Shown: positions 3,624-36,170 of the stretch, one piece after another | How the letters are laid out: each line of letters begins with the position of its first letter | Numbering within the stretch: position 1 is the first letter of the stretch | Origin: PVC group bacterium | GTDB lineage: Bacteria > Verrucomicrobiota > Kiritimatiellia > PWTM01 | Direction of reading: 5' to 3' | DNA length: 36,170 bases | Assembly: GCA_003563855.1 (NCBI GenBank) | Contig: PWTM01000225.1 | Location: 1-36,170, forward strand | Position numbers and translations under genes: made by a program | The notes under the pieces: model-generated | Told to the model about the DNA's origin: nothing | The model's database searches: none | Seen by the model: only the letters and a program-made list of their open reading frames with translations

Positions 3624-3905
3624 ATGCGCTACCGACACAGCAGCGGAATTCACGGCCAGACCGTCGGCGAGGAGCGCATGCTCTTCGACGACGCGGCCGA
3701 CGCGGTTCACGTCCTCAATGGAACCGCGGCCTTTATATGGGACTGCCTTCGCAAACCCGCTTCGGCGCACGGCATCGAGGTGCGGCTGCACGAGGTGTAC
3801 GACCTGCACGACGTGCCGGACGTGTCGGACATGATCGCCCGCACACTGGCGGACTTTCTGGATCGAGGCATCATCGAGCCGGTTCCGGACGAGGGCCACC
3901 CCTGA
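3624..3905 (+). CDS. PqqD family peptide-binding protein (RRE-like)
   Basis: MRYRHSSGIHGQTVGEERMLFDDAADAVHVLNGTAAFIWDCLRKP...DVSDMIARTLADFLDRGIIEPV: PqqD-like core (..LFD...VHVLN.TAAFIWDCL...). Confidence 0.8.
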   Translation: MRYRHSSGIHGQTVGEERMLFDDAADAVHVLNGTAAFIWDCLRKPASAHGIEVRLHEVYDLHDVPDVSDMIARTLADFLDRGIIEPVPDEGHP

Positions 3906-3914
3906 AGCGAATTC

Positions 3915-4319
3915 GGGCGCATCTCACTTCTGGCGGTCTCTGCCCGAAAGGCCTCGCGGCGGCTATCTTAGCATGTGCGCATGGCCATGCGTCGGCGCAC
4001 GAAAGGCGGACGGAGACGATTCTGCTTGCCCCGACTCGGTGGAGTTCGCGGCAAAGATAGCGTTGGAGTTCGTCTCGCCGGAGTTGTCGAGGCAATTAAC
4101 GAAGGAGGACGACCTTCAAACGCCTGGTGGGCGCTTCCGTATAGGAATGGATTCTCGTGCGGAAACGACATTGCGACCATTCTTCCCACGATTAACTACG
4201 GCGTCAACTTCCTCCTAAACTCCACCGGATCTAACGTGTCCGTCAACGTTGCCGCGAACTACATCGGCTCCCATGCCCCGTCCATGCGGGTGTTGCACCG
4301 CCCGAAGTGAGATGCGCCC
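3915..4319 (+). mobile_element. MITE-like element copy A, 405 bp
   Basis: Perfect 16-bp terminal inverted repeats GGGCGCATCTCACTTC...GAAGTGAGATGCGCCC; flanks AGCGAATTC/GGCGAATTC (9 bp, 8/9 identical); near-identical to 23526-23930. Confidence 0.9.
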
Positions 4320-4335
4320 GGCGAATTCCCGGGGC

Positions 4336-4364
4336 TTGACAGACGACCGACTTAACGGTAGAGG
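4336..4364 (+). promoter_or_regulatory. Candidate sigma70-type promoter of peptide gene 1
   Basis: TTGACA (4336-4341), 17-nt spacer, TAGAGG (4359-4364), 57 nt upstream of ATG 4422. Confidence 0.45.
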
Positions 4365-4421
4365 TTGAATGTGATCGGCGTCCGGGCGTCCGGGCGTAAC
4401 GAAGAAAGGCGGGGGGTGGCC

Positions 4422-4607
4422 ATGAACAGGAAGAAGCGGTTCGAGCCGCCGGTGATCTTGACCTACCGGCGCGAGGAACTGGTCGTAGAGACCGTGTTCA
4501 CCGGAGAGGATCCGTCGGAAGTCCTGGTCAGCGATCGGTGCCTGAAAAGGGACGTCCGCCCGGCCCGGGGTTGCGCGGTTCTGGATGCCGTGCTCCGCGT
4601 CGCCTGA
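4422..4607 (+). CDS. Leader-like short peptide 1 with C-terminal S74-start-like segment
   Basis: MNRKKRFEPPVILTYRREELVVETVFTGEDPSEVLVSDRCLKRDVRPARGCAVLDAVLRVA; N-terminal block shared with 10642-10758 and 16389-16514. Confidence 0.75.
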   Translation: MNRKKRFEPPVILTYRREELVVETVFTGEDPSEVLVSDRCLKRDVRPARGCAVLDAVLRVA

Positions 4608-4791
4608 CGGTGGCCGCGGTTCGCCTGTGAAGCGAACGCGCCGCGATGGGGTACGGCCGGTTGCCGGGATTTCCCGCGGCGCGGAGGGTGGATTTCTCCC
4701 CGAGGTTCCAGTGCCGGACGCGGCGAAGGTCTTCGCGGAACTCGGGCTCGGCACGGGGGAAGGTTCGGTTCATCCCGCGGATTCTTGCGGC

Positions 4792-4947
4792 ATGACACTC
4801 GGCGCCCTGCAGGAGCTTCTGGTGCGGGTCGAACGCCAGCGTCGGGCGATCCACCGTCTCTCGGCCCGTGTGGACCGGCTTCGCGCGGCGGAGTCCCGCC
4901 CGGTCCCATCGGCGACCGCGCGGGGAAGGGGGGCGGCCCGGCGATGA
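4792..4947 (+). CDS. Short coiled-coil-like protein
   Basis: MTLGALQELLVRVERQRRAIHRLSARVDRLRAAESRP...; its TGA overlaps the next ATG (ATGA at 4944-4947), suggesting coupling. Confidence 0.4.
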   Translation: MTLGALQELLVRVERQRRAIHRLSARVDRLRAAESRPVPSATARGRGAARR

Positions 4948-5342
4948 AGCGTCCGCAGTCCCGCACGCCGAAGGGGCCGGCCCGCACCGCGGTCGACCCG
5001 GCCGATATCCTGGAGCGGCTGGCTCGGCTTCGCATCCAGACGTGGAGTTACACCTTCGAGCCCGGGGTCCGCCACATCGGGCCGATGGCGCAGGAGTTCG
5101 CGGAGGTATTCGGCCTGGGCGGGGACGCCCGCCGGATCCGGCTGAACGACGCGATCGGTATCGCCTTTGCCGCGATCCGCGGCCTGCACGCGATGCTCGA
5201 GGAGAACGAGGCCCGGTTGACTGCGCTGCGCGCGGAACTGGAAGCGCTCCGCGGCGGCGTGCCGCGCCCGGGGCCCGGGAACATGGGCGGCGCCGGGCGC
5301 CGCGGCGGGAAGAAGCGCGCGCCTGGCGCGCCGCCCACCTGA
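4944..5342 (+). CDS. S74-type intramolecular-chaperone-like domain protein
   Basis: VDPADILERLARLRIQTWSYTFEPGVRHIGPMAQEFAEVFGLGGDARRIRLNDAIGIAFAAIRGLHAMLEENEARL matches the Peptidase_S74 pattern (ILERL..L.I.TW.Y....VRHIGPMAQ.F...FGLG......D..G.A.AAI.GL). Confidence 0.75.
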   Translation: MKRPQSRTPKGPARTAVDPADILERLARLRIQTWSYTFEPGVRHIGPMAQEFAEVFGLGGDARRIRLNDAIGIAFAAIRGLHAMLEENEARLTALRAELEALRGGVPRPGPGNMGGAGRRGGKKRAPGAPPT

Positions 5343-5349
5343 GGCCGAC

Positions 5350-6177
5350 GTGCCGATGGGAGAGCCCCACGTCCGTTCGGTTGAGGTTCGGTCGCCCGCT
5401 TCGCTTCCGGAGGCGATGGCGAAACTGGTCGCCGACCTGGACCCGGGCCTCCCGGCGGAATTCGCAGGCCGGCGCGTGCTGCTGAAGGCCAACTTCAACA
5501 GCCCGCACCGCTATCCGGCGACGAGCGCGCCCGAAGCGCTCGCGGCGCTGGTCGCGCTGCTGCGCTCCGCCGGGGCGGCGGAGATTCGCATCGGGGACAG
5601 TTGCGGACTGCGCTGGGCGCCGGCGGCGCGCGTGGCCGAGGCCCTGGGTGTGCCGGCGCTCGCCGCGCGGCTGGGCGTGGAATGGGTCGATTTCGATGCC
5701 GGCCCCTGGGTGGACGTGCCGGTCGGCGGGCGCTTCTTCCCGAAGGTCCGCCTCGCGGAGGCGGCGGTCCGGGCCGAGTGCATCGTCTACTGCTGCTGCG
5801 TGAAGACGCATCCGGCGGCCCGCTTCTCGGCGAGCCTGAAGCATGCGATCGGGTTCCTCGCGCCCGAGCAGCGCGCGGCGATGCACCGCGGTGACATGGC
5901 GGAGCGGATCGCGGAGATCAACGCCGCGGTCACGCCCCGCCTCGTCGTGGCCGACGCCCGCAAGTGCTTCGCGGCCGGCGGTCCCGCGGTCGGCTGGGTA
6001 CGGCGGTCGGGCCTGCTGCTGGCCTCGGCCGACCGGGTCGCGCTGGACTGCGAAGCCGTGCGCATCCTGCGCGGGTTCCGTCCGCGGCTGCACCGGTTGG
6101 CGGCCGATCCCGAGGACGAGCCGCAGATCCGCGCGGCCCGTGCGCTGCGCCTCGCCCCGGCGGGCGGCGGCTCGTGA
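5350..6177 (+). CDS. DUF362 family protein
   Basis: RRVLLKANFNSPHRYPATSAPEALAALVALLRSAGAAEIRIGDSCG...CIVYCCCVKTHPAARFSASLKHAIGFL resembles DUF362. Confidence 0.75.
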   Translation: MPMGEPHVRSVEVRSPASLPEAMAKLVADLDPGLPAEFAGRRVLLKANFNSPHRYPATSAPEALAALVALLRSAGAAEIRIGDSCGLRWAPAARVAEALGVPALAARLGVEWVDFDAGPWVDVPVGGRFFPKVRLAEAAVRAECIVYCCCVKTHPAARFSASLKHAIGFLAPEQRAAMHRGDMAERIAEINAAVTPRLVVADARKCFAAGGPAVGWVRRSGLLLASADRVALDCEAVRILRGFRPRLHRLAADPEDEPQIRAARALRLAPAGGGS

Positions 6178-7616
6178 ACGTCGCGCTCGTCGAGCTCGCG
6201 CCGCGTTCGCGCCTGCTGCGGGTTCCGCTCTGGTGGCCGGTCTACCTGCCCCAGCTCGCGGCCGTGCTGCGCGCCGGCGGGCACGCGGTCGAGATCCTGG
6301 AGCCGTGGGCGGACGGACCGGAGAGCGCCGCGCCGGAGCGGCTTTCCCGCGCGCTGCGCACGCGGCCGCCGGACCTGGTCGTCTTCGACGCCGGGGCGGA
6401 AGGGTGGGGCGCCCTGCGCGCCTGCGCCCGCGCAGCCCGGGCGACGGCGCCGTCCGCCCGATTGCTGGCCGGCGGCCGGTACGTTTCGCCGTGGCCGGCC
6501 GGCATCCTGGAACACGCGCCGGAATTGGATGCCTCGCTCGTCGGCGAGTCCGAACGCGCCGTCGAGGCGCTGGCGGACGGCGCCCCGCCGGCGTCGGTGG
6601 CCGGGGTCCACGTCCGCGGCGCCACGGCCGCGCAACCTTCGGCGCCGGTGCCCGATCTCGATGCGCTGCCGTTCCCGGCCTGGGATCTCCTGGACCTGCC
6701 GTACTACGCGCGGCGGACGCCGCGCGTGATCCCCTGCCTCCCGCTCCGGACCGCGACGTTGCAGAGCGCGCGCGGGTGCTCGGGCGCGTGCCGCTTCTGC
6801 GTCGAGGGCCGCCTGCACGCGCGGCCGCACCGGTTTCACGGCGCGGCCTACGTGGTCGAGGCGGTGGAACGGCTGGCGGTCACCCACGGCATCGAGGCGC
6901 TGTACTTCTCCGACGAGAGCTTCCTCGCCGACCGCGCGCGCGTCGCCGGGCTCTGCGAGGCCCTGTTGCGGAGCCCGGTCGCGCGGCGGCTGCGCTGGGC
7001 GGCCCAGGTGCGCGCGGACACGGTGGATGCCGAAATCCTGGCGCTGATGCGCCGGGCCGGCTGCGTCCAGCTCGAGTTCGGCGTCGAGAGCGGATCGGAC
7101 CGGATGCTGGCCGCCCTGGGCAAGGGGCTCGATGCCGCGCGGAACCGCACCGCGCTGCGGCTTGCGCGCGCAGCCGGCATTCGCTCGCTGGCCTACGTCA
7201 TGGTGGGCCTGCCGGACGAGACGCGCGAGGATCTCGCATGCACCCGCCGGTTCCTCGCCGAGGCCCGTCCGGATGTCGTCCGCCTCAACCCGTACATGAT
7301 CCTCCCCGGCACCCCGCTGGCGGGCCGGCTGGCGGCGGAAGGCCGAATTCCGCCGGACGGACCCGGCGGCGCCGATCGGGCGCTGACCGCGTTGTCCGGC
7401 GAGGCGACGAACGTCACCGCGATGCCACTCGGGGAGCTGCGTGCGGCGGTCCGACAGCTCGAACGCGAGGCGGTGCTCGCCCGGCTCGCGCGGGATTTCC
7501 TCGTTCACAATCCGCCCTGGGCGCTGGCGCGCTACTTCCGGGTGCGCGCGGTGCCGGCCTGGATCCGGCACAGGCGGCGCGGGCCGGGCGCGCGACCGGC
7601 GCCACTCCGCGGCTGA
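6174..7616 (+). CDS. B12-binding-type radical SAM protein
   Basis: GTG start overlaps upstream TGA. CxxxCxxC motif SARGCSGACRFC; N-terminal half LPQLAAVLRAGGHAVEILE...; VQLEFGVESGSDRML. Confidence 0.85.
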   Translation: MNVALVELAPRSRLLRVPLWWPVYLPQLAAVLRAGGHAVEILEPWADGPESAAPERLSRALRTRPPDLVVFDAGAEGWGALRACARAARATAPSARLLAGGRYVSPWPAGILEHAPELDASLVGESERAVEALADGAPPASVAGVHVRGATAAQPSAPVPDLDALPFPAWDLLDLPYYARRTPRVIPCLPLRTATLQSARGCSGACRFCVEGRLHARPHRFHGAAYVVEAVERLAVTHGIEALYFSDESFLADRARVAGLCEALLRSPVARRLRWAAQVRADTVDAEILALMRRAGCVQLEFGVESGSDRMLAALGKGLDAARNRTALRLARAAGIRSLAYVMVGLPDETREDLACTRRFLAEARPDVVRLNPYMILPGTPLAGRLAAEGRIPPDGPGGADRALTALSGEATNVTAMPLGELRAAVRQLEREAVLARLARDFLVHNPPWALARYFRVRAVPAWIRHRRRGPGARPAPLRG

Positions 7617-7648
7617 CGAATGCAGGCGGCATCGCTATCGTCCGGACG

Positions 7649-8839
7649 ATGAGTACACGGGAGGAACTGGAGAGCGTTGACCTGGCGCCCGGCGCGCGCG
7701 CCGAGGCGGCGGCGCGCTGCACCGCGACATTCGACTTCGCGATACTCGGCGGCCGGGTGCGGCTGCGCACCAATGTGCCGGACGTCCTGGGCGGCTTCCT
7801 TCGCACCTACGCGACGTTTGCGCAGCCGACCGATTCGGCCGCGCCGGCCGACCTCGAGATCGTCGCGGTCCGGCCGCCGGGCGCCGGACCCGAACTGCTC
7901 TTCCTGGCGCGCGACCGCGCCTACCGGACGGCGTATCCGCGGCTGGTCGCGGATCCCGAACCGGTGATCGAGTATCTCGCAGTCACCCACAACCGGTCCC
8001 ATTACCTGGTCCACGCCGGCTGCGTCAGCCGGGCCGGCCGCGGCCTCGCGATCGCCGGCGCTTCGCGCATGGGCAAGACCACGCTCACCGCCTTCCTCGT
8101 CGCGCGCGGCTTCCGCTACCTCTCCGACGAGGTCGCGCCCGTCTCGCGTGCCGACGGAACCCTCTCGCCCTATCCGCTCGCGCTGGGCATCCGGGCCGGT
8201 CCCGCCTCGGCCCTGGTCGCAGACCTGCCGTACACGGAGTTCGTCAGCGAGACGGACCGGAAGGCGATGGTGAACGCCTGCGACTTCACGCCGGCCATCG
8301 CGCAGGCGCCCGTGCCGCTGCACGCGGTTGTGTTCCTCACGAACCGGGTGGCGCCCGACGTTCGTACGCCGCACCGCTTCGACGGCAAGGCGTCCGTGTG
8401 GTTCAACGCGATGAACCCGGCGTTCCGCGCCGCGGTGCTCGAGCGGACGGGGTCGGAACGGCTGGCCGAGCGCAGCATCGGAGACCAGGTTCACGTACTG
8501 ACCCTGCGCAGCCGCGCGCCCGACGGCTTCCTGGACGCGCTGCGGGCCGTGGCCCGGACGCACGGCATCGGGATCGTATGGATGCAGGTCGAAGATCTCG
8601 ATCCCGCCGACTTCGATGCGGCGCCGCGTCTATTGCGGCTCCCCATCGCGGTTGGACTGGTCGAGCTGATCAAGAAGCTCCCGTCCAGCCAGAAGGCCGA
8701 GCTTGTGCGGACGCAGTTCGGCGGGCGGATGACGGGCCTCGTCGGGGAACTCGCGCGGCGGGTCGGCCACGCGGCCTTCTACAAGCTCTCGCCGGGCCGG
8801 CTGGAAGCCATGGTCGAAACGCTCGAGCGCCTCGCATGA
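7649..8839 (+). CDS. HPr-kinase/phosphorylase-like (HprK-like) protein
   Basis: YLVHAGCVSRAGRGLAIAGASRMGKTTLTAFLVARGFRYLSDEVAPV: HprK-like P-loop and downstream motif. Confidence 0.75.
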   Translation: MSTREELESVDLAPGARAEAAARCTATFDFAILGGRVRLRTNVPDVLGGFLRTYATFAQPTDSAAPADLEIVAVRPPGAGPELLFLARDRAYRTAYPRLVADPEPVIEYLAVTHNRSHYLVHAGCVSRAGRGLAIAGASRMGKTTLTAFLVARGFRYLSDEVAPVSRADGTLSPYPLALGIRAGPASALVADLPYTEFVSETDRKAMVNACDFTPAIAQAPVPLHAVVFLTNRVAPDVRTPHRFDGKASVWFNAMNPAFRAAVLERTGSERLAERSIGDQVHVLTLRSRAPDGFLDALRAVARTHGIGIVWMQVEDLDPADFDAAPRLLRLPIAVGLVELIKKLPSSQKAELVRTQFGGRMTGLVGELARRVGHAAFYKLSPGRLEAMVETLERLA

Positions 8840-10551
8840 GCGGCGTTCCCGAGACGGGCCTGGCGACGCCGGAGTTCGTTCGTACGTCCGGCCGCAGCAT
8901 GTGGCCGCTCATCCGACACGGCGCGCTCATCGCCCTTCGTCCCGCGACTCCCGAGACGGTGACCCCGGGCGAGATCGTCGCTTTCCGCCGGGACGGCCGG
9001 CTCTTCGCACACCGCCTGTTGGCCGTCCGCCGCGGGGCGGGCGGGTTCGAACTGCGCGAGAAGGGCGACCACAACCGCGGCGCTTCCTGGATCGAGGGCG
9101 ACCGGCTGGTCGGCGCGGCCGTCGAGTTGCGCGAGGGTCCTTGCCGACGGTCGTTGGGCGTCGATCCGCGCGGCCGCCGTATCCGGTGGCTGACCGCGCT
9201 CCTGCGCCTCGAGGCCGACCTCGTCGAGCGCTGGATCCGCGTGCGCTTGCGAGGTGGCGCGCCGGCCCGGCTCCGCCCGCTGCTGCTCCCGGCCGCGCTG
9301 CTCCTGGCGCCGGCGCGCGCCCTGCTGGTCCGGCTGCTGCTGACCGCCTACCCGCGGCCGACCACGGTCGAGGACGCCGGCGCGCTGGTCGCGCTGGTCC
9401 GTTCTTTCCGGGCGCTGTTCCCCGGCGCCCGGGCGGAGGGCGACGCCGAAGCCGGAACCGTACCCGGCGATGGCGTCGCGCTGATCGAGGCGGCCGCGGC
9501 GCACGGCCTCGTGCCGTCGCTCGTCGCCGTCGGATCGCTGCCGCCCACCCTCGCGCGGGCGGTGCGCCGGCAGTCCTACCGCACGGCGCTCGACCACGAG
9601 CGCGCGAAGCCGGCGTTGCGGTCGGCGACCCGCGCGCTGGATGCGGCCGGCGTTCCCTACGCGGTGCTCAAGGGGCCCGCCCTCTACGAGGCCTTCTACC
9701 GGGACCGGTTCCCTCGCGCGTACTGCGATCTCGACCTGCTCGTTCCGCGCGACCGGATCGAGGTCGCGCTTGCCGCACTGGCCGGGGCGGGGTACGCGGT
9801 GGAGGGGGGGGCGCGCCGGCAGGCCTTTCTCCGCCGTTTCCACTTCCACCTCGCGCTGACCTCGCCGCGGCCCGGCTGGCCGCCGATCGAGCTGCACTGG
9901 GCCCTGGTCGACCGCGCCAACCTCTACCGGTTACCCGCCGACGCGGGCCTGGCGCGGCGGCAAACCCTGGGCGCCGGGGACGATGCCTTCGCCGTGCTCG
10001 AACCCGGGGATGCGCTGCTCTACCTCTGCCTCCATGTCGCCAAGCACGCCCCCTTCAACGCGAACGGCCTTCGCCGCGGCGTCGGCGCCGAGTGGTTCAT
10101 CCGGGCTTCCGTCGGCAACCGCCTGCTCTGGTTCGCCGATATCGCCCTGCTGCTCGAACGCGCATTCGACCGGTTCGACTGGCCGGAACTGCGTCGCCGG
10201 GCGCGGGACTGGAATACCACCGAAGATGTCGGGGTCACGCTGCGGGTCCTGCACCTTCTCGCGCCCGGTTCGCGCGCGGGCGCGGCGCTCGAACGGCTGG
10301 GCCTTCCCGCCGTGGCGCCGGTGCGGATGCGGCGGCGGGCGTGGTCCGGCGCGGGGCCCGCGCCGGAGTGGGCCCTGCGCATGAACCCCGTCGTGCTCTT
10401 CCGCCCGATCCGGGTCCTGCTGGCCTTCCGCCTGCTGTTCCCCCCGCCGGGCCGGCTCCTCGCATACTACGCCGGCGTCTCGCGATGGCGGTTGCCCCTG
10501 CTCGTCCTGGTCCATCCGTTCCACATGGCCGGCCGGCTCCTGCGGAAGTAG
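8836..10551 (+). CDS. S26 signal-peptidase-like domain fused to NTP_transf_5-type nucleotidyltransferase
   Basis: ATGA overlap with upstream gene. N-term GRSMWPLIRHGALIALRP...FAHRLLAVRR...EKGDHN (SipW/Sec11-like); C-term YAVLKGPALYEAFYRDRFPRAYCDLDLLVP...IELHWALVDR (NTP_transf_5). Confidence 0.75.
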   Translation: MSGVPETGLATPEFVRTSGRSMWPLIRHGALIALRPATPETVTPGEIVAFRRDGRLFAHRLLAVRRGAGGFELREKGDHNRGASWIEGDRLVGAAVELREGPCRRSLGVDPRGRRIRWLTALLRLEADLVERWIRVRLRGGAPARLRPLLLPAALLLAPARALLVRLLLTAYPRPTTVEDAGALVALVRSFRALFPGARAEGDAEAGTVPGDGVALIEAAAAHGLVPSLVAVGSLPPTLARAVRRQSYRTALDHERAKPALRSATRALDAAGVPYAVLKGPALYEAFYRDRFPRAYCDLDLLVPRDRIEVALAALAGAGYAVEGGARRQAFLRRFHFHLALTSPRPGWPPIELHWALVDRANLYRLPADAGLARRQTLGAGDDAFAVLEPGDALLYLCLHVAKHAPFNANGLRRGVGAEWFIRASVGNRLLWFADIALLLERAFDRFDWPELRRRARDWNTTEDVGVTLRVLHLLAPGSRAGAALERLGLPAVAPVRMRRRAWSGAGPAPEWALRMNPVVLFRPIRVLLAFRLLFPPPGRLLAYYAGVSRWRLPLLVLVHPFHMAGRLLRK

Positions 10552-10565
10552 CCTCGCTGCCGCGC

Positions 10566-10594
10566 TTGACACGCACGGGCGAATGCGCGACAAA
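10566..10594 (+). promoter_or_regulatory. Candidate promoter of peptide gene 2
   Basis: TTGACA at 10566-10571; weak -10 candidate GACAAA after 17 nt; hairpin AAGGCCA-TGTT-TGGCCTT at 10601-10618 in the leader. Confidence 0.3.
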
Positions 10595-10641
10595 GGATGA
10601 AAGGCCATGTTTGGCCTTCCACCAGCCGGGGAGCGGAAGAC

Positions 10642-10758
10642 ATGAAAGAGAAGAGGCGCTTCGAGCCACCGAAGATCGAAACATTCCGGCGCGACGAGCT
10701 CATCGTCGAGACGGCGTTCACCGGGGTCGTCATGAAGTCCCCGGTGTTCCGCGACTAA
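10642..10758 (+). CDS. Leader-like short peptide 2
   Basis: MKEKRRFEPPKIETFRRDELIVETAFTGVVMKSPVFRD (38 aa), purine-rich GGGGAGCGGAAG upstream; not in the supplied ORF list because of length. Confidence 0.75.
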   Translation: MKEKRRFEPPKIETFRRDELIVETAFTGVVMKSPVFRD

Positions 10759-10774: not shown

Positions 10775-12064
10775 CTAGAAATACCACGTGGCGGTAACGA
10801 AGAGCTGGGGTCGTCCCAGGTCGAGGCCGTTCACGCGTCCGTCGAACTCGCTGGCTTCCGGCCCCGCGAAAAGGGAGGCGCCCAGTCCGACGAGGAGATC
10901 CGGCCGCCATTCGTACTCCAGCTCCGGGATCAGAACCATGCTGCGGTCGTTGAGATTTCGCAGCGCCGCCAGTTGCAGCCGCAGGGTATCCCGGGCCATC
11001 GAGGCCGTGCCGACGGCGACCAGGTAGTCCCGCGCCGCGAGCCGTCCGGTCAGGCGGTCGGCCGGCGCGTAGTCCTCGGGCCGCGCCGCCCCCCGGCCCC
11101 GGCGGTGGTACTCGGCCTGGAGCAGGATGTGGTCGAACGGATCGACCCGGAGCCCGAGGGCCGCATCGAGCGCGCGCGAAAGGCGGCCGGCATCGCGCCC
11201 CGTCCGTAGCGCGGATTCCGCGTAGACCACGGTCGCGCCGATCGAGCCGGCGACCTCGGCGGTGACCCGCTCCTCGACGCGTAGCGCAAGGTTCCCGTCC
11301 GGCCCGGCGACGCCCTCCACGGCGCGCACGAATCCCGCGCCGATGTCCCAGACGCCGGCGAACGCGCGGGCGCGTACACCGAACGGCAGTTGATCCGCCG
11401 AGGCGATCCCCCGCCCGGCCGTCGCGCGGCGGGTCCGGTCCTCGAAGCCCACGTAGCCCTCGACGCCCCAGGAGGCGCCGGGCGTGAGGCTCGCCGTGAC
11501 CGCGGCGATGCCCGGGGGTTCGATCCCGGCGAAATCCGCCAGGGAGTCCGGGTTCGCCAGGTCGGTCGGATTGAACGCGTAGGCGGTGCCCCAGGCCAGC
11601 GGCTGGCGGCCGACGCGGAGATCCAGCGGGCCGAAGGACGCGGCCCCGTAGAGATAGTCCAGGTCGATACTCCGGGCCGCGTCGCCCGCGCGGGAATCCG
11701 CGGGCGGCACATCCTCCGCGCCGAGCGCGAGCCATCGCGTCCGCGGATCGGCCGCCCCGCGCAGGTCGCGCAGTTCGGCCTCCAGGACAACGCTCAGGTC
11801 GGGATCCGGCTCGAACCGAGCCCGGAGACGCACGATGCTGGAAAGGCCGACGAGCGCATCGTCCCCGCTCCGCGCGCGCGGCAGGACCAGGAGCCCGGTG
11901 GTCTCGAGATAACCCGACCACCGGATCCCCCCGTTCTCCGCCCACCCGCCGTTCCAGTCCCCGCCGCCGGGCTCCGGGGAATCCCAGTCGTCGGCCCAGT
12001 CGCCCGCGCGCGCGCCGCCGGCGGCCAGCACCGCGAGCAACAGGCCTCTATGCCAGGCCTTCAT
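10775..12064 (-). CDS. Outer-membrane beta-barrel protein (DUF1302-like, RND-associated)
   Basis: Signal peptide, beta-barrel pattern, terminal ...PQLFVTATWYF; next to outer-membrane lipoprotein-sorting and MMPL genes. Confidence 0.65.
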   Translation of the reverse strand: MKAWHRGLLLAVLAAGGARAGDWADDWDSPEPGGGDWNGGWAENGGIRWSGYLETTGLLVLPRARSGDDALVGLSSIVRLRARFEPDPDLSVVLEAELRDLRGAADPRTRWLALGAEDVPPADSRAGDAARSIDLDYLYGAASFGPLDLRVGRQPLAWGTAYAFNPTDLANPDSLADFAGIEPPGIAAVTASLTPGASWGVEGYVGFEDRTRRATAGRGIASADQLPFGVRARAFAGVWDIGAGFVRAVEGVAGPDGNLALRVEERVTAEVAGSIGATVVYAESALRTGRDAGRLSRALDAALGLRVDPFDHILLQAEYHRRGRGAARPEDYAPADRLTGRLAARDYLVAVGTASMARDTLRLQLAALRNLNDRSMVLIPELEYEWRPDLLVGLGASLFAGPEASEFDGRVNGLDLGRPQLFVTATWYF

Positions 12065-12085
12065 GACGGACGCCGGCCGGGCCGG

Positions 12086-12868
12086 CTAGCGGTGGAACCG
12101 GTTCGGGTGGAAGAGATCGTCATCGAGCGGGACATCCCATTCGACCTCGTGCATGCGGATTTCGGTGCGGGAATCGCCGGCGATGTTCACCATGACGAGG
12201 TGCGTGGCGACATGGCGTCCGCCGATCTCGCGGATCCGATCGGCTTCGAGGCGCTTCGCCGGCGCGTCGTTCTCGTAGTAGTCGATGCGGACCGGAACGT
12301 AGGTCGCGCGGTCGATGTGGAAGACGAGCCGGCTGTACTGGCTGTCGGACGAGCGCGGTTCTCCGGCGATCACCCAGCGGTCTTCGTTCTGGATCACGAA
12401 CTCGAAGCGGTGATAGTCGCTCGTGAAACCGCTGCCGCCCATGTCCTCGTAGGAAAAGTCCCCGCCGACCCCGCCCACGGAGCCGCGCCGGCCGGCGCCG
12501 CCGATGTTGCGCACTCTTCCCGTGGACGGGAAGAACACGCGCACCGCGCCATCCAGGTCCAGCACGCGGAGGCCCGCGATGCTGCGCGGGCTGGCGAACT
12601 CGATGTGCGTCGCGTCCATGCCCCGCGTGTAGGTGAGCAGCCGCAGTTCGCGGTCGTGGCGTTCGGCGTCGCGCCGATGGTAGATGCGCATGGTCATGCG
12701 GCTGCGGGCCGTGTCCGGACCCCGCTGCGCATCGACGCGCTCCATGATGGCTTCCGCCTCCGGCGATTCGGCCGTCGCTGCCGGCGCCCCGGCCAGCAGC
12801 GCGAGTCCGGCGCTCGCGAGGCACGCCGCGCGACGCCGCGCGGCGCGGGTGAGCAGCGTTCGGTTCAT
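12086..12868 (-). CDS. Outer membrane lipoprotein-sorting protein (LolA-like, PF17131-type)
   Basis: Signal peptide; SRMTMRIYHRRDAERHDRELRLLTYTRGMDATHIEFASPRSIAGLRVLDLDG...DYHRFEF...LVFHIDRATYVPVRIDYYENDAPAKRLE. Confidence 0.8.
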   Translation of the reverse strand: MNRTLLTRAARRRAACLASAGLALLAGAPAATAESPEAEAIMERVDAQRGPDTARSRMTMRIYHRRDAERHDRELRLLTYTRGMDATHIEFASPRSIAGLRVLDLDGAVRVFFPSTGRVRNIGGAGRRGSVGGVGGDFSYEDMGGSGFTSDYHRFEFVIQNEDRWVIAGEPRSSDSQYSRLVFHIDRATYVPVRIDYYENDAPAKRLEADRIREIGGRHVATHLVMVNIAGDSRTEIRMHEVEWDVPLDDDLFHPNRFHR

Positions 12869-15654
12869 GGCGTCTCCTTTCGTTCCCTTCGGTTCCGCCG
12901 GCGCTGCGCAAGGCTGAGGCAGGCCGGCAGGACGATCACGGTGGCCAGGAAGCAGGTGCCCAGTCCCACAAACAGCAGCGAACCCATGGCGGCGATGGTC
13001 GCCATTTCGCCGACGACGGCGAGCGACCCGAACGCCAGCATCGTTGTGACCGTGGTCAGCAGGACCGCCTTCCCGCTGTAGCGCAACGTGGGCTCGATCC
13101 GGCCGCCCTCGTGGCGGTACCGGTGGAGGATGTGCAGGGCGTCGTCCGTGCCGATCCCGATGAGCAGCGGGAACACGAGCCCCGCGGTCAGGGCCAGGTG
13201 CGTCCCCGCCAGCGGCAGCAGCCCGAACATCCAGGCGAGCCCGAGCACGACCATGGTGAAGGCCAGCAGCACCTGCCCGATCCGGCGGAAGGCCAGGAAC
13301 AGGAGCGCGAACACGGCCAGCGCCACGTAAACCCCGGCCCGTGTGGCCTCGGTGAAAATCTCGCGGGTCAGCTCCACGTAGAGGGGCACGGAGCCGGTGA
13401 CCCCGGGATCCACCCGGGTCGTCGCGGTGTGAAACGCGAGCACGGTGGCGCTGTCTTTCTGGGCGGCCGCGGTGGGGATGACGGTGACCAGGAAGCGCGA
13501 GCCATCGGCGGAGACGAGTTGCGGGCGGAGGGTTTCGGGCAGGTCGTCCACGGTTGGCGCGCGCGTGACGGCCATGTGACGCTGCTGGGCCGCCAGTGCC
13601 GGCGCGAGGGCCTCGTCCAGCGCCGCCAGCCGGCCGGCGGCCGCGTCGGCATCGGCCGTCACGGCGGCGATGGCGCGCTGGAAGACCTCGCGGCCGGGTT
13701 CGCCCACCTCCGCGCCGATGATCTCGCGGATCATCGTGTCGCGCCGCCGCGCCACGAGGTTGCCTTCGCCCATGCCGGCCACCGCGAGATCGCCCAGCTC
13801 GATCGCGTTCCACTCCAGGCGCTGGAGTTGCTCGGCGACCTCGCGCACATGGTCGGCGGTCCGCACTGTGCCTTCCAGTTCCGCGGCGTCCTGCGCGCCG
13901 CCGGGTCCCGCGGGGCCGCCCCGGGCGATCAACGCGAGCCGCTCGGAAACGTCGTCGGCCGGCGGGAGAAGGTCCGACACGGCGACCGCGCGGCTGACCA
14001 GGCGCTCGCGCCGGAAGGCCTCGGCCAGCTCGCGGGCGTCCTCCACCGAGGCGCGCGTCGCGAACGCGATGAAGGGCGAGACCTCCATGTGCGCCATGAT
14101 CGCCCGCTGCGTCGCCGTGTACCGGTGTGCCCGGGGCGCGTTGTTCATGGGGTCATAATCGACCACGTTCCGCGGGATGGCCCAGGCCGCGACGGCGGTC
14201 AGCGCGGCGGCGGCCGCCAGCGCCGCCCACGGATGTCGCTCGATCGCGCGGCCCAGGCGGCCCATGAAGCCGAAGTCGATCATCGGCCGCCAGCGGGCGC
14301 GGCGCAGTTCGCCCTTGCCGCCGAAGGAGAGGAGCAGCGCGGGGAAAAGCAGCAGCATCACGGCCAGCGTGATCAGCACGCCCATGCCCGCCACGAACCC
14401 GAACTCGCGGACGGCCGGCGAGCCCGAAAGGGAGAGGGAGGCAAACGCGACCGCCGTGGTCACGCCGCCGAGCATGATCGGGGCGCCGCCGGCCTGCATG
14501 GCCCGGCGCAGCGCCTCCGCGCGGTCCAGCCCCTCCAGGCGGAAGTCGTCGTAGTTGCTTACCAGGTGGATGCCGAAGTCGATGCCGAGGCCCATCAGGA
14601 TGACGGCGAAGATCGAGGTGATCATCGAGACGTGCCCGATCGTCAGCACGATGGCGCCCATCGTGAGCAGGATGCCGACGATCAGCGCCCCCAGGGCCAG
14701 CAGCATCTTGCGCAGGCGGGTGAAGGAGAAGAAGAACAGCACGACGATCAGCGCCAGGGCTACCAGTGTCGGGACGAAGGTGTCCGCGCCCGCGCCCTGG
14801 TGCCGCGCCACGGCCCAGGCGACTTCACCGCCCAGGCCGAGGCGGACGCCCTCCATGTCCCGCTCCACCGATTGGGCGATGGCATCCACGCCGTCAACGG
14901 CCCGGTAGAGCGCGTCGAAGTCGAGCATGTCGAAGGCGGGGACCAGGCTGAAGGTCAGCATGCCCTGCGTCGGCGACCAGGCATAGCGCTCGCCCACCAG
15001 CACGCTCTCGACCGCCTCGCGCGCCAGGTCCGCGGCCGCCTCCGGCGCCAGGTCGTCCCCGCCGGCGAGCGCCGCGCGCACCGCGGTCGCGAGCCGCTCA
15101 AAGCCGCCGAGCACGGCGAGCCCGCTCCACTGGTCCTGGTTCGTTGCGAAACGGTCGTCGTCGGCGAGTACCACGTCCTCGAGCGTGTCGTTCAGCGTCG
15201 TGAGCAGGCCCAGCAATGAGCGCTGCTCGAGCATCCGTTGAACCCGCTCCGCGTCCTCCGGCTCGTCGGCCAGCATCAGTCCCCAGCGCAGCGGGTACTC
15301 GGACTCGGTCTCGGCGCGGACAGACCGGAACAGCGCGGCCAGCTCGGCATCGGCGCGCAGGCGCTCCGCCGCCTCGCGCGCGGCGGCCTCGACCGCGTCG
15401 CGGTCGTCCCCCGTAACCGCGACGATCAGGGTCGAGGCGAACCCGAAGGCCTCCTCGATCTCGAAGAACTGCGAAGCGACCGGGTTGTCTTCGCCCAGGA
15501 GTTGTTCGGGTTCGACCACGAGCCCCAGCCGCTGGCTGAGCGCGAGGCTGGCGACGAGCAGGACGCCAAAGACCGTGTAGACCCACCCGCGCCGCCGGAT
15601 CGCCACCTCCGCCATCCAGGCGGTCATCCGCTCTTCGCGTGTCAGCTTCGCCAT
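12865..15654 (-). CDS. MMPL/RND family transporter
   Basis: 929 aa, two RND repeats; SMITSIFAVILMGLGIDFGIHLVSNYDDFR and GLVFPLLIGIGTDDALHILHRYRHEG. Confidence 0.9.
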   Translation of the reverse strand: MAKLTREERMTAWMAEVAIRRRGWVYTVFGVLLVASLALSQRLGLVVEPEQLLGEDNPVASQFFEIEEAFGFASTLIVAVTGDDRDAVEAAAREAAERLRADAELAALFRSVRAETESEYPLRWGLMLADEPEDAERVQRMLEQRSLLGLLTTLNDTLEDVVLADDDRFATNQDQWSGLAVLGGFERLATAVRAALAGGDDLAPEAAADLAREAVESVLVGERYAWSPTQGMLTFSLVPAFDMLDFDALYRAVDGVDAIAQSVERDMEGVRLGLGGEVAWAVARHQGAGADTFVPTLVALALIVVLFFFSFTRLRKMLLALGALIVGILLTMGAIVLTIGHVSMITSIFAVILMGLGIDFGIHLVSNYDDFRLEGLDRAEALRRAMQAGGAPIMLGGVTTAVAFASLSLSGSPAVREFGFVAGMGVLITLAVMLLLFPALLLSFGGKGELRRARWRPMIDFGFMGRLGRAIERHPWAALAAAAALTAVAAWAIPRNVVDYDPMNNAPRAHRYTATQRAIMAHMEVSPFIAFATRASVEDARELAEAFRRERLVSRAVAVSDLLPPADDVSERLALIARGGPAGPGGAQDAAELEGTVRTADHVREVAEQLQRLEWNAIELGDLAVAGMGEGNLVARRRDTMIREIIGAEVGEPGREVFQRAIAAVTADADAAAGRLAALDEALAPALAAQQRHMAVTRAPTVDDLPETLRPQLVSADGSRFLVTVIPTAAAQKDSATVLAFHTATTRVDPGVTGSVPLYVELTREIFTEATRAGVYVALAVFALLFLAFRRIGQVLLAFTMVVLGLAWMFGLLPLAGTHLALTAGLVFPLLIGIGTDDALHILHRYRHEGGRIEPTLRYSGKAVLLTTVTTMLAFGSLAVVGEMATIAAMGSLLFVGLGTCFLATVIVLPACLSLAQRRRNRRERKETP

Positions 15655-15670
15655 GATCCGGCCCTCCGGT

Positions 15671-16183
15671 TCAGCCGCGCACGAACGGAATCGTCATCGG
15701 GTACTTCCATGCGGTCCCCTGTCCCGCCTTCACGGCCGCGACGATGCAGAAGATCAGGTCCATGACGTATATCGCGAGCAGCAGGAGGACGCCGACAAAG
15801 ACGAAGACCAGGATGATCGAGATGATCGAGTAGAGGATGAGACTGAGCTGCCAGTTCAGGGCGGCCCGCGCGTGCTGCTTGACCCGCGGTTCCGGTGAGG
15901 CGAGCAGGATGACCAGCGGGCCGATGAAGCCGGTCAGGAGGCCGAGCACGTGGGCCAGCACGCAGAGCGTCACGTCCGGCCGGGCGGCGGCCGCCGGGGG
16001 CGGCAGAGGAGGCGCGCCCGGCACGCCCGTGAAGAGGGGGGTGGCCCCCGCCTCCTGCCAGGCGTCCATGCCCTCGGTCCAGACCAGCGTTCGCCGTCCG
16101 ATAACCCCCGACCGGACCCGCTCGGCCGCCTCGGCCTCCGGGATCGGTCCGACCGCCCCGTTCTCCCCCGCGTAGTACCACAT
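15671..16183 (-). CDS. GYF_2 plus DUF4870-like membrane protein
   Basis: MWYYAGENGAVGPIPEAEAAERVRSGVIGRRTLVWTEGMDAWQEA (GYF_2) followed by hydrophobic DUF4870-like region ending AAVKAGQGTAWKYPMTIPFVRG. Confidence 0.8.
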   Translation of the reverse strand: MWYYAGENGAVGPIPEAEAAERVRSGVIGRRTLVWTEGMDAWQEAGATPLFTGVPGAPPLPPPAAAARPDVTLCVLAHVLGLLTGFIGPLVILLASPEPRVKQHARAALNWQLSLILYSIISIILVFVFVGVLLLLAIYVMDLIFCIVAAVKAGQGTAWKYPMTIPFVRG

Positions 16184-16310
16184 CGCATACCCCCCCCGAA
16201 ACCGGCGGCGCTGGCCGACGGTCGCAGGCGCAACATGCGACGAGGCGCTCCTCCCGGTCAAGTCCGCGCCGGACTCCCAGCTTGCCGCGTTCCCGGCCAC
16301 CGGGTGTATT

Positions 16311-16339
16311 TGACACCGACGCGAAAAGACGCTAGTCGT
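16311..16339 (+). promoter_or_regulatory. Candidate promoter of peptide gene 3
   Basis: TTGACA (16311-16316), 17-nt spacer, TAGTCG (16334-16339). Confidence 0.35.
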
Positions 16340-16388: not shown

Positions 16389-16514
16389 ATGCAAGAGAAG
16401 AAACGCTTCGAACCGCCGAAGGTCGAGACGTTCCGGAGCGACGAGTTGATCGTCGAGACGGCGTTCACCGGGGAGGTGTGGATCGACTCGCCACCCAACG
16501 ACGTCCCGGTGTAA
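16389..16514 (+). CDS. Leader-like short peptide 3
   Basis: MQEKKRFEPPKVETFRSDELIVETAFTGEVWIDSPPNDVPV (41 aa); N-terminal block shared with peptides 1 and 2. Confidence 0.75.
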   Translation: MQEKKRFEPPKVETFRSDELIVETAFTGEVWIDSPPNDVPV

Positions 16515-22310: not shown

Positions 22311-22574
22311 GGGCGTATCTCACTTCTGCCGGCGCATATACCGCATTGACGGGGCCTGGGGCCGATGTAGTTCGCGGCAAAGTTGACGGATACTGCCTCG
22401 ACAACTCCTGCGAGACCAACTCCAACGCTATCTTTGCCGCGAACTCCACCGAGTCGGGGCAAGCAGAACCGTCTCCGTCGGCCTTTCGTGCTTCGGCGCA
22501 TTGCACAATGCCCACATGCTAAGATAGCCGGGGCCAGGCATTTCGGGCAGAGACCGCCAGAAGTGAGATGCGCC
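22311..22574 (-). mobile_element. MITE-like element copy C, internally deleted, 264 bp, inverted
   Basis: GGGCGTATCTCACTTC...GAAGTGAGATGCGCCC ends; exact 9-bp duplication GCTCGTGAT at 22302-22310 and 22575-22583; reverse complement of copies A/B with about 141 bp net loss. Confidence 0.9.
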
Positions 22575-22583
22575 CGCTCGTGA

Positions 22584-22652
<69 letters not shown>

Positions 22653-22688
22653 AGTGAAGAGGTCCCGCGACGTTTCGACAGGGTGCGC

Positions 22689-23525: not shown

Positions 23526-23930
23526 GGGCGCATCTCACTTCTGGCGGTCTCTGCCCGAAATGCCTCGCGGCGGCCATCTTAGCCTGTGCGCATGGTCATG
23601 CGCCGGAGCACGAAAGGCCGACGGAGACGATTCTGCTTGCCCCGACTCGGTGGAGTTCGCGGCAAAGATAGCGTTGGAGTTAGTCTCGCAGGAGTTGTCG
23701 AGGCAGTTAGCGAAGGAGGTCGACCTTCAAACGCCTGGTGGGCGCTTCCGTATAGGAATGGATTCTCGTGCGGAAACGACATCGCGACCATTCTTCCCAC
23801 GATCAACTACGGCGTCAACTTCCTCGTAAACTCCACTGGATCTAACGTGTCCGTCAACGTTGCCGCGAACTACATCGGCTCCCATGCCCCGTCCATGCGG
23901 GTGATGCACCGCCCGAAGTGAAATGCGCCC
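23526..23930 (+). mobile_element. MITE-like element copy B, 405 bp
   Basis: GGGCGCATCTCACTTC...GAAGTGAAATGCGCCC ends; exact 9-bp duplication GCCGGTGGG at 23517-23525 and 23931-23939; same length as copy A. Confidence 0.9.
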
Positions 23931-26827: not shown

Positions 26828-27115
26828 TGACGACGGAGCAAGCGCAGGCCGGGCGAGCGGCACGCAACCCTTGCGAAGCCATGGGCTCTCCCGCCCCGGG
26901 AACGCCACGCTCCAGCGTGGCACGGTCCTGGTCCTCGATGTACTCGTCGCCCGCTCTCGCCTGCCGCGCCGAAGCGCGAAGCGCGTAGGCGGGTCGTCCG
27001 CTCTCGTCGCCCGAGCGCGCGGGGCTGGCGCTCGGTTCCCTGTCGTGGCCGGTCCTTGAGGGTGGCTTTCGTGCGACGATAGGGGTGGACGATTGGAGCC
27101 CGGGCTCCTCCCGCT

Positions 27116-27172
27116 CGTCCTCGTCCTCGTCCTCGTCCTCGGATCTCGAAAAACGAGGACGAGGACGAGGAC
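27116..27172. repeat. GAGGAC hexamer hairpin
   Basis: CGTCCTCGTCCTCGTCCTCGTCCTCG, loop GATCTCGAAAAA, CGAGGACGAGGACGAGGAC. Confidence 0.85.
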
Positions 27173-27475
27173 CGCTCGCTTCGCTCGCTGAGGACGAGGA
27201 CGAGCAGGACGGTCGGCGGCGCAGGACTCGTGTCCGCGCCGCGCCGCCGCAACGCCGCTCACGGCTTGCCCGCCGTAGCCTTGGCGAAGGCGGGGGCCTT
27301 CGCGGACGCGAGCGGCACGGCCTGCCGCACCACGCCGTCCGTGGAGAAACCACCGCAAGCCGAAAGCCGAAAACTGGGCAAAGCCCACGCGGCGGGCACT
27401 TCCGCGCGGCGACGTTGCCGGTTATACTCCGCCCCGGACGCGCCGCGGCCCTGGCGCGTGAACCGGGATATCTGC

Positions 27476-29913: not shown

Positions 29914-30240
29914 TATGCGGGTAAGAGTATACGGGTAAGCATGCGGGTAAGCGGTTACGGGTAAGATTGGGCGGGTAAGAGTGGGAAGGTGCTTCTTCGC
30001 GTGGCGGGCATGCTTGCGGCGTCTTCTAAGGCGGTAGCCAGTAAATGACACTCGAACCCCCTTACCCGAACCCCTTTGCCGAACCCCCTTACCCGCATAC
30101 CCTTACCCGCATACCCTTACCCGCATACCCTTACCCGAACCCCCTTACCCGCATACCCTTACCCGCATACCCTTACCCGACCACCCTTACCCGCATACCC
30201 TTACCCGCATACTCTTACCCGACCACCCTTACCCGATCCG
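29914..30240. repeat. Inverted array of 14-bp CTTACCCGNNNNCC units
   Basis: Left arm about five inverted (GGGTAAG) units at 29914-29983; right arm about 13 units at 30061-30240 with exact 14-bp period (CTTACCCGCATACC, CTTACCCGAACCCC, CTTACCCGACCACC). Confidence 0.85.
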
Positions 30241-30321: not shown

Positions 30322-30348
30322 CGAGGACGAGGACGAGGACGAGGACGA
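30322..30348. repeat. GAGGAC hexamer array
   Basis: CGAGGACGAGGACGAGGACGAGGACGA. Confidence 0.8.
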
Positions 30349-33369: not shown

Positions 33370-33424
33370 AATCCCACGCTACCCGCCCCCGTCATCCCGC
33401 TCAAGCGTAACCCCCGTCCCCCAA

Positions 33425-33545
33425 AATCGTAGTCCCGATCCTAGTCGCAATCATAGTCTTTGTCCTGCCCCCCCATCTCCACGCCATCCCGACTACGATC
33501 CCGACTACGATTGCGATTACGATTGCGACTACGATTATGATTACG
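33425..33545. repeat. GTAGTC/GACTAC hexamer hairpin
   Basis: AATCGTAGTCCCGATCCTAGTCGCAATCATAGTC ... CTCCACGCCATCCC ... GACTACGATCCCGACTACGATTGCGATTACGATTGCGACTACGATTATGATTACG. Confidence 0.85.
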
Positions 33546-35925: not shown

Positions 35926-35982
35926 TCCCCGCTCGCTCTCCTGGTAAGGATTTCGAGCACGAGGAGGAGGCCCGCGCCCCCC

Positions 35983-36080
35983 ATCGTAGTCGCAGTCCTA
36001 GTCCCAATCGTAGTCTTCGACCGCCCCCGCCCGGCTCCACGCCATACCGACTACGATTGCGATTACGACTGTGACTACGA
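35983..36080. repeat. GTAGTC/GACTAC hexamer hairpin
   Basis: TCGTAGTCGCAGTCCTAGTCCCAATCGTAGTC ... GGCTCCACGCCATACC ... GACTACGATTGCGATTACGACTGTGACTACGA. Confidence 0.88.
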
Positions 36081-36097
36081 GGCTTGCGCCTTCTCCT

Positions 36098-36170
36098 CAT
36101 CGTAGTCGCAGTCCTAGTCCCAATCGTAGTCTTCGCCTCTCCCCGCACGGCTCCACGCCATCCCGACTAC
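36098..36170. repeat. GTAGTC/GACTAC hexamer hairpin, cut by window end
   Basis: TCGTAGTCGCAGTCCTAGTCCCAATCGTAGTCTTCG ... GGCTCCACGCCATCCCGACTAC. Confidence 0.85.

Follow-up and report, generated by a model that had tools for sequence, protein, structure and literature searches.

Linear polyphosphorylated peptides (LPPs), described in 2026 from the lpp cluster of Paenibacillus alginolyticus, derive from precursors with the leader motif YxxPxVLxHQxIxFETxxS; cleavage after T-1 and phosphorylation of S3 are both experimentally established, the family has been reported to be restricted to Bacillota, the final product is unknown, and LppN was inactive in the heterologous host (PMC13381572). In LppB, the cognate recognition element for these ribosomally synthesized and post-translationally modified peptides (RiPPs), N33 fixes the leader proline kink and D70 binds the hydroxyl of the leader Tyr (PMC13381572). 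Phosphorylated lasso peptides of the paeninodin and pseudomycoidin type, in which the kinase site is a C-terminal Ser, also combine a RiPP recognition element (RRE) with an HprK-like kinase and a nucleotidyltransferase (NTase) that acts after the kinase; a PsmN-type NTase is required for the placement of hexose on phospho-Ser in the pseudomycoidin pathway (PMC9266682). A third relative, the HPr-rel-A system (TIGR04352/TIGR04353), pairs HprK-related kinase A with an adjacent PqqD-like chaperone. Here, we compare these systems with a RiPP cluster on a 36,170-nucleotide stretch of Verrucomicrobiota DNA (the window), one entire contig of a metagenome-type assembly that has 370 contigs and is ~90% complete.

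We suggest, with a probability of about 0.62, that the window encodes a RiPP pathway of Verrucomicrobiota operating in the manner of the LPP pathway. The locus is a real, rare and coherent RiPP cluster that very probably makes small modified peptides; it is a variant of an LPP-like pathway and not strictly an LPP cluster. The initial annotation had described an uncharacterized peptide-modification cluster, akin to lasso clusters but not one of them. Its placement relative to the lasso clusters was upheld, but "uncharacterized" was too strong, as signal peptidase I (SpI), RRE, HprK and nucleoside triphosphate (NTP) transferase together form the LPP core (PMC13381572). All of the genes that it named are open, lie on the + strand where they were placed and carry the domains given, and the 4-nucleotide overlaps at 4944/4947, 6174/6177 and 8836/8839 are present. 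The genes form a one-strand row as claimed, but PqqD precedes peptide 1 and hence does not lie between peptides 1 and 2; what had been called one S74-like gene does contain an S74 domain but is really two open reading frames (ORFs), 4627-4947 and 4944-5342. The features are as follows.

3624..3905, + strand: PqqD-type discrete RRE, 93 amino acids (PF05402, 25.0 bits, cut-off 23.4)
3915..4316, no strand: repeat between pqqD and peptide 1, resembling a miniature inverted-repeat transposable element (MITE), with direct and inverted repeats; edges read from the sequence
4336..4341, + strand: TTGACA box, 86 nucleotides before peptide 1
4422..4607, + strand: precursor peptide 1, 61 amino acids; leader MNRKKRFEPPVILTYRREELVVET, then VFTGEDPSEVLV, then the S74 N-terminal segment SDRCLK
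4627..4947, + strand: separate ORF for the C-terminal half (the coiled-coil side) of an S74 domain (S74 profile)
4944..5342, + strand: S74 domain without the catalytic SDRxLK strand (PF13884, 31.4 bits, cut-off 22)
5350..6177, + strand: DUF362 protein (PF04015, 143.7 bits, cut-off 24; E 9.7e-42)
6174..7616, + strand: B12-binding radical S-adenosylmethionine (SAM) enzyme (PF04055, 67.0 bits versus 29.5; PF02310, 39.1 versus 32.1)
7649..8839, + strand: HprK-related kinase (TIGR04352, E 3.5e-15)
8836..10551, + strand: fusion of SpI and an NTP_transf_5 NTase (TIGR02228, PF14907)
10566..10571, + strand: TTGACA box, 76 nucleotides before peptide 2
10642..10758, + strand: precursor peptide 2, 38 amino acids; predicted product AFTGVVMKSPVFRD
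16310..16315, + strand: TTGACA box, 79 nucleotides before peptide 3
16389..16514, + strand: precursor peptide 3, 41 amino acids; predicted product AFTGEVWIDSPPNDVPV

Comparison of gene neighbourhoods, which the initial annotation had proposed as a check, was conducted through relatives of the window PqqD protein and yielded two further clusters, both with peptides, in JAHIZV01 (Verrucomicrobia; G017) and VGWI01 (Lentisphaerae; G112). The G017 cluster comprises PqqD, four small peptides and radical SAM, HprK-like and SpI-NTase genes; that of G112 comprises PqqD, two peptides, DUF362, radical SAM, a flippase-like gene and an HprK-like gene truncated where the contig stops; the tail of the kinase gene and SpI-NTase open another contig. 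Among 388 genomes of Verrucomicrobiota, peptides (E <= 0.001) were found in three, the window's genome (G000), G017 and G112, save for one weak match, and the full-length SpI-NTase fusion and the window-type radical SAM subfamily (840-910 bits; next best, 225) were confined to the same three. Because peptides, fusion and radical SAM subfamily co-occur in identical genomes, the conserved core is RRE, precursors, B12 radical SAM enzyme, kinase and SpI-NTase, and DUF362 and S74 are optional parts. DUF362 and the radical SAM enzyme had been presented together as parts of the cluster, and both are present, but DUF362 (61% identical in G112) falls outside the core because it is absent from G017, one of the three intact genomes. 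S74 occurs within the cluster in the window alone, and the G112 genome has none.

The system is rare: strict patterns for the conserved RRE stretches, applied to 84,980 species, matched at six loci, two of them distant. The family-mate CALGXT01 (G005) has a PqqD homologue with an in-frame TAG (L018/L021 1228-1533), no peptides, SpI-NTase fusion or radical SAM subfamily member were detected there, and it is probable that this genome has lost the system. An orphan PqqD homologue also lies on an uncultured Lentisphaerae contig (L024 2412-2660), with no peptides or enzymes detected within 7 kb.

The three peptide genes, the only ones found in the window's genome, are regarded as genes because synonymous change exceeds nonsynonymous change between peptides 2 and 3 (0.34 and 0.08 of sites, respectively, over 28 codons) and because a TTGACA box stands upstream of each; the hexamer occurs five times in the whole 36-kb window, both strands counted, three of the five being 76-86 nucleotides before peptide starts. 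Given these boxes, each precursor probably has its own promoter, an arrangement that would fit one enzyme set acting on several dispersed substrates. Leaders in the window run FxxPx[V/I], then ELxVET, then [AV]FT; the leader aromatic is mostly Phe, with Leu or Ile in two G017 peptides. Only M1, P10, F26 and T27 are invariant in all 10 peptides from the three genomes, F26 and T27 being the only such residues of the core, and the tails after FT, about 5-14 residues long, vary freely between paralogues. Two peptide-like matches (G000:C139 and G204:C4) were weak, lay within longer frames, were unaccompanied by other cluster genes and were dropped.

The window and LPP clusters share a discrete RRE, an HprK-like kinase, an archaeal/SipW-type SpI domain (in the window, the predicted leader peptidase) and an NTP transferase (PF14907), as well as several precursors with a constant leader and a variable tail, a leader ending in ET (FET/AQS in LPP and VET/AFT in the window, the slash marking the cut, predicted for the window) and a hydroxy residue at core position 3. 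In a search with the RRE profile, LppB is also the nearest solved relative (9x8z, E 5.6e-4), the paeninodin RRE PbaB1 being second (9x90, 0.009). In an alignment to 9x8z of four window-type RREs, in which the G005 row carries Q in place of the in-frame TAG, the Asn of VLNG at the N33 position is invariant, whereas the D70 position is Met or Val in all four and Met in the window PqqD. Replacement of the leader Tyr by Phe therefore appears to pair with loss of the hydroxyl-binding Asp of the RRE, and such a compensating change would offer a test case for the evolution of leader specificity. We do not class the cluster as LPP because several defining features fail: of the leader motif, P, the hydrophobic position and ET are kept but Tyr, HQ and Ser are not; core position 3 is Thr rather than Ser; the RRE Asp is replaced; and the MsbA-like transporter of LPP is missing from the window cluster. 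The two also differ in that predicted cores are 8-17 residues long rather than 45, SpI is fused to the NTase, a B12 radical SAM enzyme is added, DUF362 and S74 are optional, and the host belongs to Verrucomicrobiota rather than Bacillota.

Two loci of the same class carry these functions as separate genes: HprK, PqqD-TPR, SpI and NTase stand in a row in G054 (L084 5064-9374), and NTase, PqqD, HprK and SpI occur in G052 (L086 3755-6658 and 10334-10798). Their precursors are 110-150 amino acids long, with leaders ending in GPVETQYG (G054) and GPVKTQYA (G052), and, as sequences, VET/QY, VET/AF and FET/AQ look like a single cleavage signature. Because these unfused clusters share the same logic, we question the statement that such systems are found in Bacillota only; it may hold for the strict LPP family but not for the combination of kinase, signal peptidase and NTase, which the window and unfused clusters together place in Verrucomicrobiota. 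Literature searches for the gene combination returned the LPP paper and otherwise unrelated papers. A membrane protein adjoining the G052 cluster (L086 1119-3137) resembles a large one with a GGWDPGVY motif that accompanies the flippase-like gene of the G112 cluster (L019 11458-14890). In G017, the next gene after SpI-NTase, overlapping its end, encodes a PhoD-like phosphatase (L012 6342-7439).

The kinase matches PF07475 (E 3e-4) and aligns at H122, P-loop K143, D160 and E161, with P-loop and His conserved; no solved relative was found by sequence, and an AlphaFold model (pLDDT 53, pTM 0.37) was too poor and was not used. Kinase and PqqD both miss the HPr-rel-A equivalog cut-offs (55.9 bits against 200 and 30.5 against 35, respectively), and the definitions of those families include neither an SpI-NTase fusion nor a B12 radical SAM enzyme. 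The SpI domain is of archaeal/SipW type (TIGR02228, 36 bits, cut-off 51.85), with predicted catalytic residues S21, H59 and D78; the Ser, His and KGD Asp are kept in all three fusions, from which a second Asp some 6 residues further on, perhaps equivalent to LppS D93 by spacing only, is absent. The NTase half matches PF14907 strongly (127.2 bits versus 31.2, E 1.1e-36). The radical SAM enzyme combines a CxxxCxxC motif with a B12-binding domain but scores below every curated subfamily cut-off; over the SAM core, the aminoglycoside enzyme AprD4 is the closest relative of solved structure. DUF362 shares a Pfam clan with lactate racemase LarA; no solved relative was found by sequence, and its AlphaFold model (pLDDT 58; best PDB match lactate racemase, E 0.017) was too poor to use.

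Gene content, leader conservation, co-occurrence and the split S74 domain described below were read from the sequence, and from them we infer each reaction, the order of the steps and the product. The PqqD protein would bind the FxxPx[V/I] part of the leader and present the peptide, the HprK-related kinase would phosphorylate the invariant Thr27, the third residue after the cleavage site, and the SpI domain would cut after VET24 to release a short linear peptide of about 8-17 residues starting A/V-F-T. Thr27 is favoured because all 10 peptides have it and because it takes the place of the phosphorylated S3 of LPP. The NTase half may then extend the phosphate with a group derived from a nucleotide or a sugar, a proposal modelled on the PsmN-type NTase of pseudomycoidin. 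C-methylation is the usual outcome with B12 radical SAM enzymes of this type and is the most likely further step on the core. Three separately transcribed precursors would supply the same enzymes. In the window's genome and in G017, one of the precursors also bears the catalytic strand of an S74 self-cleaving chaperone, the rest of which is divided between two neighbouring ORFs. The radical SAM enzyme and the peptidase-NTase fusion are thus candidate answers to the question of which steps follow phosphorylation.

Several observations weigh against this pathway. None of the G017 peptides has an exact ET before xFT (EM, EE, NT, EL and DI occur instead), and therefore those peptides may be cleaved by a different rule. 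LppK did not accept S3T (PMC13381572), so phosphorylation of Thr is an extrapolation. The kinase score is far below its equivalog cut-off, and Glu replaces the second Asp of the His-Lys-Asp-Asp set of lasso kinases. No transporter is fixed to the cluster, with no MsbA-like ABC transporter among the cluster genes or the flanking genes scanned, and the known clusters number just three, each from a metagenome assembly.

The most striking feature of the cluster is the split S74 on one precursor. Judged by profile matches, an S74 domain is divided over peptide 1 and the two downstream ORFs, and the arrangement is repeated in G017. With a profile built on 13 complete domains of the same class (about half of the collected S74 loci were left out because of wrong orientation), the 4944-5342 protein matched positions 16-105 (85.7 bits), the 4627-4947 protein positions 53-106 (20.5 bits; best of 1000 shuffles, 3.8) and the end of peptide 1 positions 6-29 (7.3 bits; best of 1000 shuffles, 3.1). 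The counterparts in G017, at an unlinked locus, scored 101, 26.5 and 15.3 bits, with best shuffles of 9.7, 8.3 and 6.2. A profile of the middle ORF matches the ends of S74 domains in >20 other genomes, where they lie inside longer, full-length proteins. Peptide 1 carries S37-D-R-C-L-K42 (nucleotides 4530-4547), with Lys at +5 from Ser, and a G017 precursor has SDRNLK between two leader-core modules. The same Ser-Lys spacing is found in MyRF (S587/K592) and endosialidase (S911/K916), and MyRF cuts itself just before the Ser once trimerized (PMC8326128). The S74 intramolecular chaperone auto-cleavage (ICA) domain of endosialidase tailspikes and MyRF shares the SDRxLK dyad, GPMAQ core and coiled-coil end but is normally one continuous C-terminal fibre domain, whereas here its parts are encoded by the precursor gene and two further ORFs; the dyad, present on the precursor only, and the GPMAQ core are on separate polypeptides. 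The literature searched contained no account of a self-cleaving S74 domain shared between a RiPP precursor and two partner proteins, and a third split candidate, G032:C4, proved to be a contig end.

We tentatively propose, as a possibility well short of an even chance, a three-part enzyme in which peptide 1 contributes the Ser-Lys strand and the downstream proteins contribute the trimeric core, with self-cleavage before Ser37 once the parts have assembled. Together with the leader cut after VET24, this would leave VFTGEDPSEVLV, of 12 residues (in G017, AFTQGGSQQPA, of 11), pieces matching in size what the other precursors would yield; the RiPP would be trimmed C-terminally by a split phage-type self-cleaving chaperone or, if uncleaved, displayed on the trimer. 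It is also conceivable, although we think it unlikely, that the S74 segments lie outside the pathway, as a decayed tail-fibre gene beside the cluster whose in-frame remnant ends peptide 1. The peptide 1 match is short and low scoring, a genome with the cluster lacks S74 altogether, and full S74 proteins are numerous in the class, as this explanation would predict. Decay sits poorly, however, with the same three-part order at an unlinked G017 locus that has its own peptide, where the middle ORF is only 27% identical, the frames are open and start/stop coupled, and both genomes keep the Ser and the Lys at +5.

A broader departure from an LPP-like pathway would be for the peptides to serve as carrier scaffolds, with small molecules built on them or tails consumed for a non-peptide metabolite, as with pyrroloquinoline quinone or the pearlins, and with kinase, NTase, DUF362 (LarA-like) and radical SAM enzyme acting on a small group. 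The shortness of the tails, the kinship of the radical SAM enzyme to AprD4 and, weakly, the lactate racemase clan of DUF362 are consistent with such a role. Yet scaffold enzymes such as an amino-acyl-tRNA-dependent ligase or an M16-type protease are absent from the cluster genes, the tails vary freely among paralogues, and the SpI core matches that of LPP, whose intermediate is a linear peptide; we consider scaffolding improbable. Lower still do we rate phosphorylation of the Ser of Ser-Pro motifs in the variable tails, with the tails as the signal. The initial annotation had named Ser-Pro in peptides 2 and 3 and "SD" in peptide 1 as possible kinase targets, but peptide 1 and the homologous peptides lack Ser-Pro, one G017 tail (GVDYNPGG) is free of both Ser and Thr, and SD belongs to the S74 SDRxLK motif. 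On sequence grounds, T27 is thus the likelier kinase site, at the core position on which LPP phosphorylation falls. A degraded or minimal paeninodin-like lasso cluster is scarcely credible: although RRE, HprK-like kinase, NTase and an aromatic-xxP leader are common to such clusters, no macrolactam cyclase (Asn synthetase-like) domain occurs among the cluster genes, the lasso B2 cysteine peptidase PF13471 has no match in the ~90% complete assembly of the window's genome, core positions 7-9 hold no Asp/Glu in most peptides, two other genomes repeat the gene set, again without lasso enzymes, and the predicted kinase site lies near the core N terminus rather than at a C-terminal Ser.

Between peptides 2 and 3, the opposite strand encodes DUF1302-like barrel, LolA-like, MMPL and GYF/DUF4870 proteins (10775-16183, - strand); the MMPL, LolA and DUF1302 genes were considered as a possible exporter and set aside, given their opposite orientation and because neither of the two further clusters showed them nearby. 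The genome of the window also has a second RiPP-like locus (L043 12424-15431), in which a solitary NTP_transf_5 gene adjoins one for a radical SAM protein with a PqqD domain. The MITE-like element has three copies in the window (3915-4316, 22311-22576, inverted, and 23526-23930), 90-97% alike, with termini GGGCGCATCTCACTTC/GAAGTGAGATGCGCCC. An array of a 14-nucleotide unit (ACCCTTACCCGCAT and variants) occupies 30043-30240, and intergenic simple repeats of the GAGGAC type and the GATTACGA/GTAGTC type occur at about 22621-22654, 27113-27207, 30322-30345, 33400-33540 and 35979-36170, close to several gene ends.

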